22,400 nucleotides of DNA, taken from the IMG/VR virus record IMGVR_UViG_3300025769_012516, positions 1 to 22,400 of that record. The stretch is one strand, 5' to 3'. The stretch is from a virus. This document shows, piece by piece, positions 3,800 through 12,217 of this stretch. The notes under the pieces were generated by a model. The model did no database searches and was not told where the DNA came from. It was given only the letters and a program-made list of their open reading frames with translations. Position 1 is the stretch's first letter. Each line of letters begins with the position of its first letter. A program made the position numbers and the translations under genes.

Positions 3800-4132
3800 T
3801 CAAGCAGAGACAACATTAGCTACTTTCTTTTTAGCCTTTTTAGTCCTAACTTTGGGAGCAAGCAGGTTCAATAGGTCTTTGTCTTTTTTGCGAATTAAAA
3901 CAACTAGGCGTTCTAGGTTTTGGGCATAAGACTCTTCTTTAGTTTCAAGGATCACCCGTCGATAACCTTTGAGTTTGTTGGGAGATCCTTTCCTTTCCAG
4001 AGGGTCTGCTTTACGTACTTCCAACCCGTTAGGTTGATAGGACTTTGCTCCCTTTGGTCTACCGAACGTCTTAACAGCAGGTTCCTTTGCTTGTTTTTTA
4101 GAGGGTGCTTTAGTTACTTTTTTCTTAGGCAT
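3800..4132 (-). CDS. Very basic Lys-rich protein, 110 aa, AT-hook-like motif
   Basis: About a third of the residues are Lys or Arg. Both ends are Lys clusters (MPKKKVTKAPSKKQAKE and VRTKKAKKKVANV). A GRPKGAKSYQPNG segment at residues 24-36 contains the GRP core of an AT-hook. The central part (ETKEESYAQNLERLVVLIRKKDKDLLNLL) is predicted helical. Binding to DNA or RNA is a reasonable inference, but no family is recognised. It is a single-gene unit with its own promoter (4171-4199) and terminator (3686-3721), and an operator-like repeat overlaps the promoter, so it is probably regulated separately from the replication genes upstream. Confidence 0.75.
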   Translation of the reverse strand: MPKKKVTKAPSKKQAKEPAVKTFGRPKGAKSYQPNGLEVRKADPLERKGSPNKLKGYRRVILETKEESYAQNLERLVVLIRKKDKDLLNLLAPKVRTKKAKKKVANVVSA

Positions 4133-7070: not shown

Positions 7071-9002
7071 TTATACAGTAACAGGGATAGGTAGAGAGGT
7101 AGCGTTAGACCATGAAGAGTTAGTTATCTTTGCGTCTACTTCGGTGTAGACACCAACAGAATTAGCTGCTTGGTTCATCAAGTCAGCTACTTTAGTGATG
7201 TGGTGGATCTCTTGTTTTAAGAATCGTGCTTTTGTAATTACGTTCTTAGTTTGAAAGATGATTTCGTCATGGATAAGCATGATAGGAACGATAGGAACTT
7301 CTGGAAGGGAGCAGTATTCTGTGCAATCATTGATTGCCGTCTTTACCATCTCTCCTTCAGTTCCTTGCACAACGATGTTGCACGCTTTGTAAGCAGTCTT
7401 TTTAGGGACACGTAATGGGTATCCACCAAGCGTACGAACATACCCGTTGCGTTTCGCATATCGTTCACATCGTTTTAAGTACTTATCTACTAGAGGAAAA
7501 CGATCTTTGAACAAGGCGTACGATCCGTCAATCTTGCTCATCCTTTCGATCTTTGCCCTTCCTGCTCCAAAAATTATCCCAAAGTTGATTGCTTTCGCCG
7601 CTCTCCTTTGCAAGGATGTAGGCTGTTCTGTTTGAAACACTTCTTTGGCGACAATATCGTGGATGTCTAGTCCTTTGGCAAACGAATCTATTAAGAACGA
7701 ATCGCCGCAGGCATGGGCGAAGATCCTTAGTTGAAGTTGAGCATAGTCGATACATATCCATAGCTTTCCTTTTGGTGGACCGAACGCTTCTCGTAAGTTA
7801 AACGAAACTGTCATGTCGAAACTGTCATCATCATTATCTTGCTTACTAATGTTTTGGGCATTAGGGTTTTTAGCGGCATAACGAAGAGTAGATGTTCCGG
7901 CAGGATTTAAATTAGAATATAAGCGAGAGTTTATTTCGTGACGTTGATAAGAGTCTAGGTATGATTGGGCAGTGTTTAGTTTTCGGTAGGTAAGTAGGCG
8001 ACGGCAGAATTGTTCTTGTTTAGAATTGATGTCTGTCCGTTCTAGGATTTCTTTGATTGCTTCTTTATCGGTAGCTAAGTTTCCTTTTTCAGTAAACGAT
8101 TGACTCTCTATGTTTAGGGATTCGAACAGTGCTTGCTTTAGTTCTATTGGGGATCGTGGATTAAAGTCTTTGATACGACACAAACGTTGTAAGCCATTTC
8201 TCACATCTTCTTTTGTTTGAGATAAGTTATGAAGAAGTGATGGCAATCGTTGACGTTGAAGATAGAATCCTTGGTTTTGCATGTAGTAAGTAGGTAAAAG
8301 ACATAGACGATTTTTTTCGTAGTGTTTCCAGTCGTCTTTGTCTTTAAGTATTTTACGAAAATAGATGAATAATCCAATCGTGCGTTCTACATCTCCTACA
8401 GCGTAAGTTGAGCATACTTTTTCAAAGTACTGCTTGGTTTTGCTGTCCAGTGTTCCTGGAGGAGAAGAGCGGGCGACGGCCTTTGGTAGCCAGAAATCGC
8501 ATTTACCTTTCTTATCTTTTAACGCTTTCAAAGAATCTAGAGTGTCGTCAGCTATAGCCCATTTTAGTCTTTTGCCTATTCGACGAGCTTTGTTGACTGC
8601 TTTATCTAAATCTTTTTCGTCATGTTCAGGATAGTCTAAGTAAAGTAATGCTAATCCTTTTAGTCCTCTTTTGTCTAAAGAATCGTTGCAGTGTGCCATT
8701 AACATAGTGTCATGGATTACTACTTTTTGGATTAGGTTTTCAAAGTTAGTAGACCCTAATAGTTCTAGAGCTTTGATATCGAACAACGCATTATGAAACA
8801 CCCAAGTTTTATACTTACTTAGAGTATCGAAAAGATTAGTTACGGTTTCTTCATCGTAGATAGGATCTCTAGTATAAGGATCAACTGTAAATTCCCATTT
8901 AAAAGCGTACCCCTTTTCGTCACATGCCGTAACCATGAAAGGCTTACATCCATGTTGAAGAAAAGGACCAGTTGTTTCAGTATCAATCGCTATTGCGACC
9001 AT
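7071..9002 (-). CDS. Family A DNA polymerase with 3'-5' exonuclease
   Basis: The replicative polymerase of the phage, 643 residues and without a 5' nuclease domain. Exonuclease motifs: DTE at 7-9, N71ALFD75 and Y200AVGD204, all intact, so proofreading is expected. Polymerase motifs: motif A CIDYAQLQLR with catalytic D419, motif B RRAAKAINFGIIFG with R466, K470 and F474, and motif C HDE at 578-580. The upstream T-x-T-G-R signature reads TSTLRYAAKNPNAQNISKQ, with Leu in place of Gly. F474 aligns with E. coli Phe762, and the Tyr766 position is Phe here. GGAGG eight bases before the ATG sets the start. The 5' end overlaps a 55-residue gene. It is followed by the primase-helicase, giving a replication core. 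Confidence 0.95.
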   Translation of the reverse strand: MVAIAIDTETTGPFLQHGCKPFMVTACDEKGYAFKWEFTVDPYTRDPIYDEETVTNLFDTLSKYKTWVFHNALFDIKALELLGSTNFENLIQKVVIHDTMLMAHCNDSLDKRGLKGLALLYLDYPEHDEKDLDKAVNKARRIGKRLKWAIADDTLDSLKALKDKKGKCDFWLPKAVARSSPPGTLDSKTKQYFEKVCSTYAVGDVERTIGLFIYFRKILKDKDDWKHYEKNRLCLLPTYYMQNQGFYLQRQRLPSLLHNLSQTKEDVRNGLQRLCRIKDFNPRSPIELKQALFESLNIESQSFTEKGNLATDKEAIKEILERTDINSKQEQFCRRLLTYRKLNTAQSYLDSYQRHEINSRLYSNLNPAGTSTLRYAAKNPNAQNISKQDNDDDSFDMTVSFNLREAFGPPKGKLWICIDYAQLQLRIFAHACGDSFLIDSFAKGLDIHDIVAKEVFQTEQPTSLQRRAAKAINFGIIFGAGRAKIERMSKIDGSYALFKDRFPLVDKYLKRCERYAKRNGYVRTLGGYPLRVPKKTAYKACNIVVQGTEGEMVKTAINDCTEYCSLPEVPIVPIMLIHDEIIFQTKNVITKARFLKQEIHHITKVADLMNQAANSVGVYTEVDAKITNSSWSNATSLPIPVTV

Positions 9003-9150
9003 ATTTAATATCCTCCAACAACTTTCGAGCGGCTAAGAGTTCTGAAGCTAGTTTACGTACTTCTTCAAATCCGACTCCATATGGTTGCTTTGACCATGCT
9101 TCTAACTTTTCGTCTGACAGTGGTTTTTCAGATACTTTAGGTCGCTTCAT
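8983..9150 (-). CDS. Small hypothetical protein, 55 aa
   Basis: Translation from the ATG at 9150 gives an intact frame beginning MKRPKVSEKPLSDEKLEAWS, then QPYGVGFEEVRKLASELLAA, and ending RKLLEDIKYGRNSD before TGA. It is charged and mostly helical. AAGGA five bases before the ATG is a good Shine-Dalgarno. It overlaps the upstream gene by 14 bases and the polymerase start by 20, and the polymerase GGAGG lies inside it. It fills a gap of more than 130 bases that would otherwise be empty, which makes it credible as a coupled gene. Function unknown. Confidence 0.72.
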   Translation of the reverse strand: MKRPKVSEKPLSDEKLEAWSKQPYGVGFEEVRKLASELLAARKLLEDIKYGRNSD

Positions 9151-9487
9151 CACTATCCTTTCGCTTTTGTTTGGCTATGAGGTGATCGACATTAAGGTGA
9201 AGAACTAGGTCTTTCACTTGCTTGATTATGTACGCATTGTCCTTGAACAGTAGTAATACGTAGTTAAGCAAGTCGGCTAACTCTGAGTCATCCCTGCCTT
9301 TAATCTCATCGTAAATGTCAAAGATGGTGTGGTTCCAATTCCAGACATGGACCTGATTTTTGATCTCTTGTCGTACTCCATCTAAGATGACAACATTCTC
9401 TACCAAGTATGTAATGACTACCCTCATGTCACCGTTGCAGCAAGAGGGATCAACACCTGCTTCTTTACATACGTCTTCGTAATTCAT
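9137..9487 (-). CDS. Hypothetical protein, 116 aa
   Basis: No family recognised. The N-terminus has clustered Cys (VCKEAGVDPSCCNGD). The middle is hydrophobic but broken by charges (RVVITYLVENVVILDGVRQE), and the C-terminal half (ELADLLNYVLLLFKDNAYII, KQVKDLVLHLNVDHLI) looks amphipathic helical rather than membrane-spanning. The frame can open with GTG at 9490, but the ATG at 9487 follows GAGG at a good distance. It overlaps genes on both sides, so translation is coupled within the replication operon. Confidence 0.7.
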   Translation of the reverse strand: MNYEDVCKEAGVDPSCCNGDMRVVITYLVENVVILDGVRQEIKNQVHVWNWNHTIFDIYDEIKGRDDSELADLLNYVLLLFKDNAYIIKQVKDLVLHLNVDHLIAKQKRKDSDEAT

Positions 9488-9782
9488 CACTCACCTCACT
9501 TTCGGTTTCTTTTTGGACATCACGGTAGGTTTTCAGAAACAGATCCCACGCTTGGTCTAGGTCGTCTGTCCTGTAATCCGATGGTGGCAAATCGACGTAA
9601 TCGAACAACTCCCAAACAGCTTCCCGCAACTCGGCAAGCTGGGCTTCGGCGTCCTCATCTCCCGACAACACTTCTCGAACACAAAAGACTTCTGCACCGT
9701 GCGGTATCACTTCTGGTCCAATTGCAATCCCGAGGGATAGCTCACTTTCGTAGTACACTTCGTATTCACGTCGCTTGCTCAT
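9465..9782 (-). CDS. Acidic hypothetical protein, 105 aa, GC-richer than neighbours
   Basis: No family recognised. It is strongly acidic (LSGDEDAEAQLAELREAVWE, DLPPSDYRTDDLDQAWDLF) with a charged tail ending SDELRRRM. Its size and charge would fit a small inhibitor or DNA mimic, but that is speculation. The frame opens with a GTG at 9785. GAGGAG seven bases before the ATG at 9782 makes MSKRREY the likely start. It overlaps the next gene by 23 bases. Base composition and codon choice (GCG, CGG, CTG-type codons) are more GC-rich than the AT-leaning genes around it, which may indicate separate acquisition. Confidence 0.7.
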   Translation of the reverse strand: MSKRREYEVYYESELSLGIAIGPEVIPHGAEVFCVREVLSGDEDAEAQLAELREAVWELFDYVDLPPSDYRTDDLDQAWDLFLKTYRDVQKETESEVSDELRRRM

Positions 9783-9804
9783 CACTCATCTCCTCGTAGT
9801 GGTT

Positions 9805-10065
9805 TCATCGCAATATCTCTCGTAAAGGAATTACGTTATGAGAAACTTTCATAGTTACTTTATGTTGGAATATAATCGAATCGCTTTTATCTCCCCAACA
9901 AGTTTCTATGATTTGATTTTTGAAAGGGTACGTTTCTGCATGTAATCTTGCTGCTTCGCAATGAGTTACATTCTCATATTCAGTCCATACGTACGGAGGT
10001 TCTGACTTCTTATCAGTTGGGTCAACTTTAGGGTTGTATACCCTAGCTAAAACAGAATGAGACAT
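9805..10065 (-). CDS. Small hypothetical protein, 86 aa
   Basis: No family recognised. It begins MSHSVLARVYNPKVDPTDKK, continues with PPYVWTEYENVTHCEAARLH and ends with KVTMKVSHNVIPLREILR, a mixed alpha/beta pattern. AAGGAT six bases before the ATG is a good Shine-Dalgarno. It is the first gene of the replication block and starts only 19 bases after tandem terminators, with a TATAAT inside the second hairpin, so its transcription start is likely embedded there. Confidence 0.72.
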   Translation of the reverse strand: MSHSVLARVYNPKVDPTDKKSEPPYVWTEYENVTHCEAARLHAETYPFKNQIIETCWGDKSDSIIFQHKVTMKVSHNVIPLREILR

Positions 10066-10084: not shown

Positions 10085-10116
10085 AAAGGCCAATTATAGT
10101 TACATAATTGGCCTTT
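10085..10116 (-). terminator. Second of two tandem terminators
   Basis: On the minus strand AAAGGCCAATTA pairs perfectly over 12 bp with TAATTGGCCTTT around an 8-base loop and runs into TTTTCTTTC. The palindromic stem could also work on the plus strand, where it is followed by AAAA only. Confidence 0.75.
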
Positions 10117-10122: not shown

Positions 10123-10145
10123 TGCACCGTTCTACTCTACGGTGC
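10117..10145 (-). terminator. First of two tandem terminators
   Basis: On the minus strand GCACCGT (10145-10139) and ACGGTGC (10130-10124) form a perfect 7-bp stem with an 8-base loop, followed by ATTTTTT. It ends the recombination block after the SSB-like gene and the gene-free stretch. Confidence 0.85.
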
Positions 10146-10377
10146 CAGAGAGGACACGTTTGTTTGACGAAGTTTGTCAGACTTCCTACCAATGACCGTG
10201 AGGTTTGTTATGAACTCGGAAAGGTGGAGTTCCCGTCCGTCATCGTCCTAAGCCACAAACTCTAGCTGCCCATTTGCTACTACGGAGTTGATGCTTCTCT
10301 ACATCTTCTCGCATCTCCAATGAAAATGCCCGTCATACACTTACGGCGTTTCGCGACCAGAGCGGGTATGGAACGAT
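10146..10377 (-). other. 232-base stretch without an intact gene; candidate structured RNA or decayed gene
   Basis: It lies between the SSB-like stop and the tandem terminators, so it would be transcribed as a long 3' leader or processed RNA. On the minus strand it can form GAUGC (10315-10311)/GCAUC (10294-10290), and GUUUGU (10260-10255)/ACAAAC (10208-10203) enclosing GAACUC (10232-10227)/GAGUUC (10217-10212). Alternatively, three overlapping frames give peptide-like stretches that could be one small gene broken by two frameshifts. I cannot decide between the two. Confidence 0.4.
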
Positions 10378-11289
10378 CTATTCTTCTTCGAATGTCAGAT
10401 CAGAAAACTCACATTCGTATTCGTTATCGTCCTCATCGGTAACAGTAAATAGTCCGCTGTCTTTATCGTAAGCAGAGGCAGTAACCGAAAGTTCTCCTGT
10501 CTCTTCAGAATCAAAAACAGCTTCGTAACCTACATACTCGGAATAGTCTTCTTCTGAGTCGCTAGAAGAACCCTTATCCAAGTGAACGCCTAGATCCATC
10601 CACGTTTCAAACTCATCAGGATCTACGTTTGCTGCGGTAGCAGCTTCAGTCAACGTATTTACAGCGTCTTCATCTCCTTCGTCTGCCTTTGCACCCAAGG
10701 ATTCCATTGAAACCTTGCTTTCCTGGGAAGGAGCGGACTTAGCCTCTTTCTTGGCAGGTGGAGTAGATTTAGGTGCATCGGAGGAATTAACTAAACCAAC
10801 AACGTCGATGTTTAATCGGTCATTAGCATCACCCCAAGTACCTAGAGACAAACGTACTCCCGGCTTGTTTTGCGTCATTGTGTCCGCTGCTTCCACAGCA
10901 TTAACAGCAATTTCGTCAGTCGCCCATGAAGTAGTATCGTAGTCAAGACGTTGGAACAATCCACACAATCGTTTCATTCCCTTTTGTCGATCTGCTTTAG
11001 TTTTACCTCCTAGCCCAATGAACTGAGAGACGGTAAGCCCTTCATGCTCTCCTTGGGCAATAGTGAAATTAAATGCGAAGTACGGATTCTTGTTTTTGTC
11101 ATTACCGTACCGAACTCGGGATACTTTAGTTACGAACTGTTTTTTAGTATCTCCTAGTTCAAGAGTTTCGATGAGTTCTTCATCGGTCATAAATCCGCCG
11201 CCAACAGATTCTTTAGCGACTTCGGCAAGTTCTTTTTCACGCTTCTTAAAGTCACGGATGAAAGCACTTCGTTCGTTAGTAACAGCCAT
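10378..11289 (-). CDS. Single-stranded DNA-binding-like protein (DUF669-like), 303 aa
   Basis: The core (residues about 1-170) contains KKQFVTKVSRVRYGNDKNKN, then PYFAFNFTIAQGEHEGLTVS and QFIGLGGKTKADRQ, a pattern I associate with phage DUF669-type proteins that act as SSB-like partners of recombinases. A Lys/Ser/Pro linker (about 171-195) follows, then a long acidic region ending EFSDLTFEEE. Acidic tails in SSBs recruit other replication proteins. Its position directly downstream of a Sak4-like ATPase supports this role, because Sak4 recombinases are known to work with a cognate SSB. AAAAAAGG precedes the ATG at a good distance. A separate C-terminal domain (about 245-300) could also be present, which would make it unusual for an SSB. 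Confidence 0.65.
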   Translation of the reverse strand: MAVTNERSAFIRDFKKREKELAEVAKESVGGGFMTDEELIETLELGDTKKQFVTKVSRVRYGNDKNKNPYFAFNFTIAQGEHEGLTVSQFIGLGGKTKADRQKGMKRLCGLFQRLDYDTTSWATDEIAVNAVEAADTMTQNKPGVRLSLGTWGDANDRLNIDVVGLVNSSDAPKSTPPAKKEAKSAPSQESKVSMESLGAKADEGDEDAVNTLTEAATAANVDPDEFETWMDLGVHLDKGSSSDSEEDYSEYVGYEAVFDSEETGELSVTASAYDKDSGLFTVTDEDDNEYECEFSDLTFEEE

Positions 11290-11344: not shown

Positions 11345-12217
11345 TTAACTAGGTTTCTTACGCTTTGCTCCTTTCTTTTTAATTACTTTTTTCTTAGTTA
11401 CCTTTTTTGATTTGCTATTGCTTCCTCGAAATGCAGTATTCAAGGTGTCATAAAATGCGTTAGGATTACTTGGAATAGTAAAACTGTTTATGGGTTCTCC
11501 GGTTTCGGGGTCCATAAAACCAGTACCGCAAGCAACATCAATTAGTCGATCAGGATCTCGGCAGAAGATAGTACGATTGCCGTCTTTCCATCCGTAGTAC
11601 AACCAGAACTCACAAGCGGATTTCAATATTTGCAAACATGCGGGGGCACAAGATGGGCCAATGATAGATAAGGTTCCACTACCGTCTTGGAACTCTTGAT
11701 CTCGCTCTTTTACGTGAGAGATAAGTAGGAGTCCTACTTTTTCTGACGCACGAATCGTATCAATGAGAGCGTTAAACTCATTCTTGATAGTGTTCCATGA
11801 TGCTCCGTAATCGTCTTTGATTTGATTAGGGTGAGTGACTCCTAATCGGGCACATACGGATTCGAAGCAAGCTTGGTATGCCAAGTCAACAGTGTCTACC
11901 GTGATCGTAGTAATCGTAGGGTCGTCTACTGCTGCGGCACAATATTCAATAAACAATTCCCAAGGGTCATCTGCCCCGTCAATAATTTCTTGTGCAGGCC
12001 GAACCATGATGCCTTCATCCGCACCAATCATACGTAGCTTGACGTTCTTACGTCGAGGTTCCCACATGATATTCAAATTCCCTGGAAAGGAAGATGATGC
12101 GGTGGTTTTGCCTATACCTTTGGCTCCCATGAGCAGAACAGTGTAGTCATGGAAATCTTCGGGAGGAATATTGAAGTCATCAGGACCGGGGAGAATAATC
12201 TTTTTTGTTTTAGCCAT
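11345..12217 (-). CDS. Sak4-like RecA-fold ATPase (AAA_24), 290 aa
   Basis: Walker A GAKGIGKT at residues 31-38 and a Walker B ITVDTVD with Asp108 give a RecA-fold P-loop ATPase. SHVKER (around 168-173) sits where Sak4/AAA_24 proteins carry their sensor. Sak4 proteins are remote RecA relatives that anneal or pair single strands, helped by an SSB, in phage recombination. The last 25 residues form a Lys-rich tail (SKKVTKKKVIKKKGAKRKK), probably DNA-binding. The ATG is preceded by the palindrome GGTAATTACC, with AAAAGG just before it. The stop codon of the nuclease gene is the TAA in that palindrome. The next gene is SSB-like, which supports the call. Confidence 0.82.
   Translation of the reverse strand: MAKTKKIILPGPDDFNIPPEDFHDYTVLLMGAKGIGKTTASSSFPGNLNIMWEPRRKNVKLRMIGADEGIMVRPAQEIIDGADDPWELFIEYCAAAVDDPTITTITVDTVDLAYQACFESVCARLGVTHPNQIKDDYGASWNTIKNEFNALIDTIRASEKVGLLLISHVKERDQEFQDGSGTLSIIGPSCAPACLQILKSACEFWLYYGWKDGNRTIFCRDPDRLIDVACGTGFMDPETGEPINSFTIPSNPNAFYDTLNTAFRGSNSKSKKVTKKKVIKKKGAKRKKPS

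Follow-up and report, generated by a model that had tools for sequence, protein, structure and literature searches.

GOLLD and ROOL are linked to phages. Together with OLE, they are classed among the large, ornate structured bacterial RNAs of largely unknown function (PMC12286853). Two phage sRNAs, PreS of lambda (~88 nt) and VpdS of VP882 (~50 nt), are short, depend on Hfq and act in trans by base pairing; PreS, encoded between ea10 and ral, promotes replication of the phage (PMC12197685). The put RNA of HK022 (~70 nt) is formed by two stem-loops and lies near early promoters (PMC9378689).

The element described here is found in the window (the whole stretch of 22,400 nucleotides analysed, a 22.4-kb uncultured virus record), where the genes around it are on the minus strand. 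Positions 10146-10377 lie exactly between the stop codon of a 303-aa ORF and the first terminator stem, and contained no ORF of at least 50 aa. To our knowledge, it is rare for a dense phage genome to retain 250 untranslated bases. Comparison with a relative indicated that the element, taken to the end of the terminator stem (Table 1), is very probably a conserved structured RNA.

Table 1. Positions of the features at and around the element in the window, and their state in the relative (R); helices P0 to P7 and the pseudoknot are predicted
Feature	Positions	Strand	Pairing, sequence or basis	In R
Candidate conserved structured non-coding RNA	10124..10377	-	First base past the ssb-like stop codon through the last base of the terminator stem; conservation with R, no coding signal	L001 984-1233
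SSB-like gene, 303 aa, acidic tail	10378..11289	-	Upstream of the element; by position and tail	
First downstream ORF, 86 aa	9805..10065	-		No homologue at the corresponding place
DNA polymerase A gene	7071..9002	-	Downstream of the element, same strand	
Intrinsic terminator	10124..10145	-	GCACCGU-AGAGUAGA-ACGGUGC, 7 bp, 8-nt loop, then AUUUUUU	21/22 bases identical; stem invariant
Second palindromic terminator-like hairpin	10085..10116	-	14 bp palindrome	Absent
Core block	10254..10286	-	UCCGUAGUAGCnAAUGGGnAGCUAGAGUUyGUG	Few changes
P0, closing the 5' domain	10268..10363	-	GCUC/GGGC (10363-10360 / 10271-10268)	ACCC/GGGU; one compensatory pair and one wobble change
P1 hairpin	10330..10346	-	CCGU/ACGG	CUGU/ACAG; one compensatory pair
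P2 variable hairpin	10284..10318	-	GGAG-AUGC/GCAU-CUCC	GGGU-AGCA/UGCU-ACCC
P3, closing the 3' domain	10145..10265	-	10265-10261 / 10149-10145	Invariant
P4	10158..10260	-	GUUUGU/ACAAAC (10260-10255 / 10163-10158)	GUUCGU/ACGAAC; one compensatory pair
P5	10190..10245	-	CGAUGAC/GUCAUUG (10245-10239 / 10196-10190), 7 bp	Invariant, uninformative on covariation
P6	10212..10232	-	GAACUC/GAGUUC (10232-10227 / 10217-10212)	GAACCU/GGGUUC; one compensatory and one wobble change
P7	10169..10185	-	GAAGU/ACUUC	GAAGG/UCUUC; one pair changed, U-A to G-U
Likely pseudoknot	10153..10178	-	P7 loop GACA (10178-10175) with UGUC (10156-10153), strand after P4	AACC/GGUU; 2/4 pairs changed on both sides

Locus, coding potential and nucleotide conservation

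The genes ahead of the element form a recombination/ssb operon with an exonuclease, a Sak4-like ATPase and the SSB-like gene. The 303-aa SSB-like protein had no match in Pfam or PHROG, and its AlphaFold model was of low confidence (mean pLDDT 44) and was not used, its fold not being established; a ~24% identical protein occupied the SSB-like position in two distant relatives (L012 and L016). Between the element and polA, positions 8983-10065 were a turnover spot, with four small ORFs in the window lacking clear counterparts in R, and two small ORFs in R different from those of the window. No tRNA or tmRNA was found in the element. Both of the tandem terminator-like hairpins seen in the initial annotation were present, the second with a perfect TATAAT inside its 3' arm and no good -35 box. 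Terminator-like hairpins were not above chance by count (3 found, 3.6 expected).

Two other short sequences were observed in the window. In the gap separating the UDG-like and PD-(D/E)XK exonuclease genes, TGACCTAACGTGTCA (13329-13315, minus strand), an interrupted palindrome TGAC...GTCA, was identical in the corresponding gap of R (L005), and resembles an operator or promoter element; a hairpin bearing a T-run comes after it in the window. A 20-nt near-identical direct repeat, TTTAGTTACTTTTTTCTTAG, occurred at 4109-4128 and 11378-11397, in lysine-rich stretches of two different genes, and is probably a codon-level coincidence.

The relative, R, is the IMG/VR contig IMGVR_UViG_3300030095_004742, and was found via the 303-aa protein. 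Its homologue of the 303-aa gene was 74-76% identical and was followed, in synteny with the window, by the corresponding element. The two elements were identical in 183 of 240 columns (76%) when aligned by hand and 77% identical by global alignment (z ~26 against shuffles), with the 3' two thirds near 80%. Identity at 4-fold degenerate sites between the same two genomes was 47% for ssb, 38% for polA, 41% for primase and 48% for sak4. Nucleotide conservation above that of 4-fold sites, together with the turnover of small genes, implies that the element must act as RNA (or as DNA). Two other intergenic gaps (UDG/exonuclease and sak4/ssb) were also fairly conserved, over 67-79% of their length, and part of the conservation of the element could be that of ordinary regulatory sequence as in those gaps, though they are short and the element is long. 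Two changes in the core block were matched by compensatory partner changes.

The initial annotation had offered, as an alternative to an RNA, a single protein gene whose reading passes through three successive frames by two +1 shifts. Open fragments do occur in three frames, but they gave no intact reading, the first of them (10318-10377) containing a stop, and stops were present in all frames of both the window and R elements. The element of R was 76% identical to that of the window despite independent gaps, the five gaps of the alignment being of 1, 1, 1, 1 and 2 nt and thus not triplets. Identity by codon position was flat over the element (0.76, 0.71 and 0.81) and highest at third positions over the last proposed fragment (0.77, 0.81 and 0.86), compared with 0.80, 0.86 and 0.52 for ssb. 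The frame fragments had no match in Pfam, in PHROGs (best E 0.13) or by tblastn against phages. A sequencing indel in the window was ruled out as the cause because R also lacks a frame. The frameshifted gene was rejected on these grounds, and a pseudogene or an assembly-indel artefact is highly improbable. R keeps nucleotides and not codons, with compensatory changes, which supports the RNA that the initial annotation had set against it.

Predicted helices and their covariation

Two domains are predicted for the RNA, one at the 5' end (P0-P1-P2) and one at the 3' end (P3-P7); a pseudoknot probably locks the latter, which would stack against the terminator. The helices named in the initial annotation exist in the window, and fared unequally in R: GUUUGU/ACAAAC and GAACUC/GAGUUC had compensatory changes, but GAUGAC/GUCAUU was invariant and uninformative, and GAUGC/GCAUC corresponded to a hairpin kept in position with different letters. 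That hairpin, P2, kept its position relative to the GUAGUAGC block, its letters being replaced and its 5' strand shifted in register. Helices with compensatory changes that were absent from the initial list were also found. When P3 was fully extended (GCUAGAG/CUCUGGC), 2 nt at the base of the terminator stem fell within it.

For comparison, columns were shuffled so as to preserve the numbers of identical, different and gapped columns. Intact helices of at least 5 bp with a double change numbered four versus 0.73 expected (reached in 1/300 shuffles); the four include mutually exclusive helices, so that the count reflects a surplus of covarying helices and not four independent parts of the fold. 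Summed double changes were reached in 5/300 shuffles. One helix with two double changes, as in the pseudoknot, was given by 31/300 shuffles; the evidence for pairing of the P7 loop with the strand after P4, which is likely, is thus moderate on its own.

Covariance had been proposed as a check of the RNA, and with R as the one relative the outcome was mixed: several helices had compensatory changes, but the RNAalifold covariation term was not better than shuffles. For the nested part and two sequences, the RNAalifold result was modestly better than column shuffles (25/500 as good). Single-sequence folding energy was not above chance on either strand (z = +0.43), and structure could not be claimed from one sequence because the element of the window folded alone no better than shuffles. 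With the pseudoknot ignored and further pairs allowed, the proposed helices were 17-20 kcal/mol above the unconstrained minimum of each sequence (the figure for R being approximate), and this constrained fold confirmed P7 for the window only. The case for base pairing appears good in some helices, but is provisional for the fold as a whole, which is limited by two sequences.

Distribution and possible roles

Searches by blastn of phages and plasmids gave no further members, the sole match being a 23-nt chance match. Exact conserved blocks searched in viral and genome contigs were found in R alone, plus chance matches elsewhere, and R was also the only contig reached with the proteins SSB-like, PolA, primase and Sak4 as queries. 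One locus, L011, scored 20.7 bits with the covariance model and was discounted, having been chosen by an exact 18-base match and lying inside a long reading frame resembling ftsA. The PolA alignment reached five distant contigs with PolA ~35% identical, and the RNA was not found elsewhere in these five records (possibly fragments) by DNA search or covariance model. The two examined in detail, L012 and L016, keep the order sak4, ssb-like, polA and primase, with a plain terminator hairpin alone between ssb and polA. The RNA likely arose or was inserted just upstream of the terminator in the branch of the window and R; on these data, the other branch could equally well have lost it. The IMG/VR contigs L012-L016 belong to an apparently undescribed phage lineage with the order exonuclease, Sak4-like, SSB-like, PolA and primase-helicase. 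A tblastn search of 50,697 phage records gave no match to the primase, Sak4 and portal proteins of the window.

The element was read as the 3'-end product of the ssb operon because it comes directly after the stop codon, has no promoter that could be identified and has a terminator at its end. From this position and the terminator, transcription of the element would start in the upstream operon: the RNA would be made as the 3' end of a long recombination/ssb operon transcript and ended by the intrinsic terminator. It may then be released, or persist, as a discrete RNA. If it acts in trans, it would most likely do so by binding, during replication, a protein or complex of the host or of the phage. 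Antisense pairing with the genes of the phage itself gave nothing beyond shuffles. A structured non-coding RNA of ~250 nt, forming the 3' end of the ssb-operon transcript and acting in trans, is the best explanation of the whole and is favoured by a narrow balance of the evidence; for the discrete, trans-acting nature of the RNA taken by itself, the balance is even.

The main rival, possible but less probable, is a cis-acting element for attenuation or antitermination, similar to a riboswitch or to the put RNA of HK022. Its fold would set the choice between stop and read-through into the small ORFs, polA and primase-helicase, and such a role agrees with the location of the element directly before a terminator, between two same-strand blocks of replication genes, and with the 21/22 identity in R of the terminator stem and loop. 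Attenuation is kept alive by the invariant extended P3, whose strand shares 2 nt with the terminator stem; yet this overlap is too small for the two structures to be called mutually exclusive. The genes just downstream differ between the window and R, and the second terminator is present in the window but not in R. In the distant relatives, polA follows a plain terminator with no such RNA, and no match was found to riboswitches, T-boxes or the like in Rfam. Since relatives without the RNA still have a terminator at that place, the RNA is not needed merely for ending transcription, and the sharing of the RNA but not of the small adjoining ORFs fits a function that does not depend on the next gene. 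A discrete, trans-acting RNA was favoured over attenuation in cis because the RNA outlasts the turnover of downstream genes and because relatives terminate without it.

That the stretch acts as DNA, as a replication origin, primer-RNA site or packaging signal with incidental RNA pairing, is improbable. The element does sit among replication genes, and conservation alone cannot tell DNA from RNA, but the compensatory changes (G-U pairs included), the register-shifted hairpin and the conserved terminator point to RNA, and no repeats or iterons were found at the element.

Comparison with known RNA families

No Rfam 15 family matched in the window at its gathering threshold, and allowing E up to 10 gave sub-threshold chance matches which differed between the window and R. 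Qrr sRNA (RF00378) and GcvB (RF00022) matched weakly at the end that carries the terminator (25.1 bits in the window, 13.4 bits in R); membership was rejected, these scores being far below the gathering scores (50 and 42), not common to the window and R, at chance level and driven by terminator hairpins. A T-box leader was considered for UGGCACCG and rejected, with no T-box covariance-model match at E up to 10. The VS ribozyme was considered for short shared strings and likewise rejected, the local alignment score with a VS sequence being 26 in the window and in R and averaging 26 in shuffles.

The best reading of the sequence comparisons is a small new family of structured phage RNAs, of which two members are known, probably a lineage-specific addition. 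A new class of compact pseudoknotted phage RNA, from the 3' end of the ssb operon and unrelated to catalogued families, that serves as a ribozyme or as the RNA part of a replication or host-takeover complex, is a speculative extension that we regard as unlikely. Two diverged phages kept ~250 nt while synonymous sites and adjoining small genes turned over. The element marks an almost unsampled phage lineage, and offers a clean starting point for learning the role of a structured phage RNA next to replication genes.

GOLLD, ROOL and OLE are much longer than the element, which had no Rfam match to them. Like the put RNA of HK022, it is a structured phage RNA associated with transcription termination, but it is of ~250 nt and lies after an ssb-like gene and directly before the terminator. 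It shares with PreS and VpdS, which act during infection, the condition of a phage-encoded non-coding RNA; those two are short and Hfq-dependent, whereas the element is of ~250 nt with a conserved fold of multiple predicted helices.
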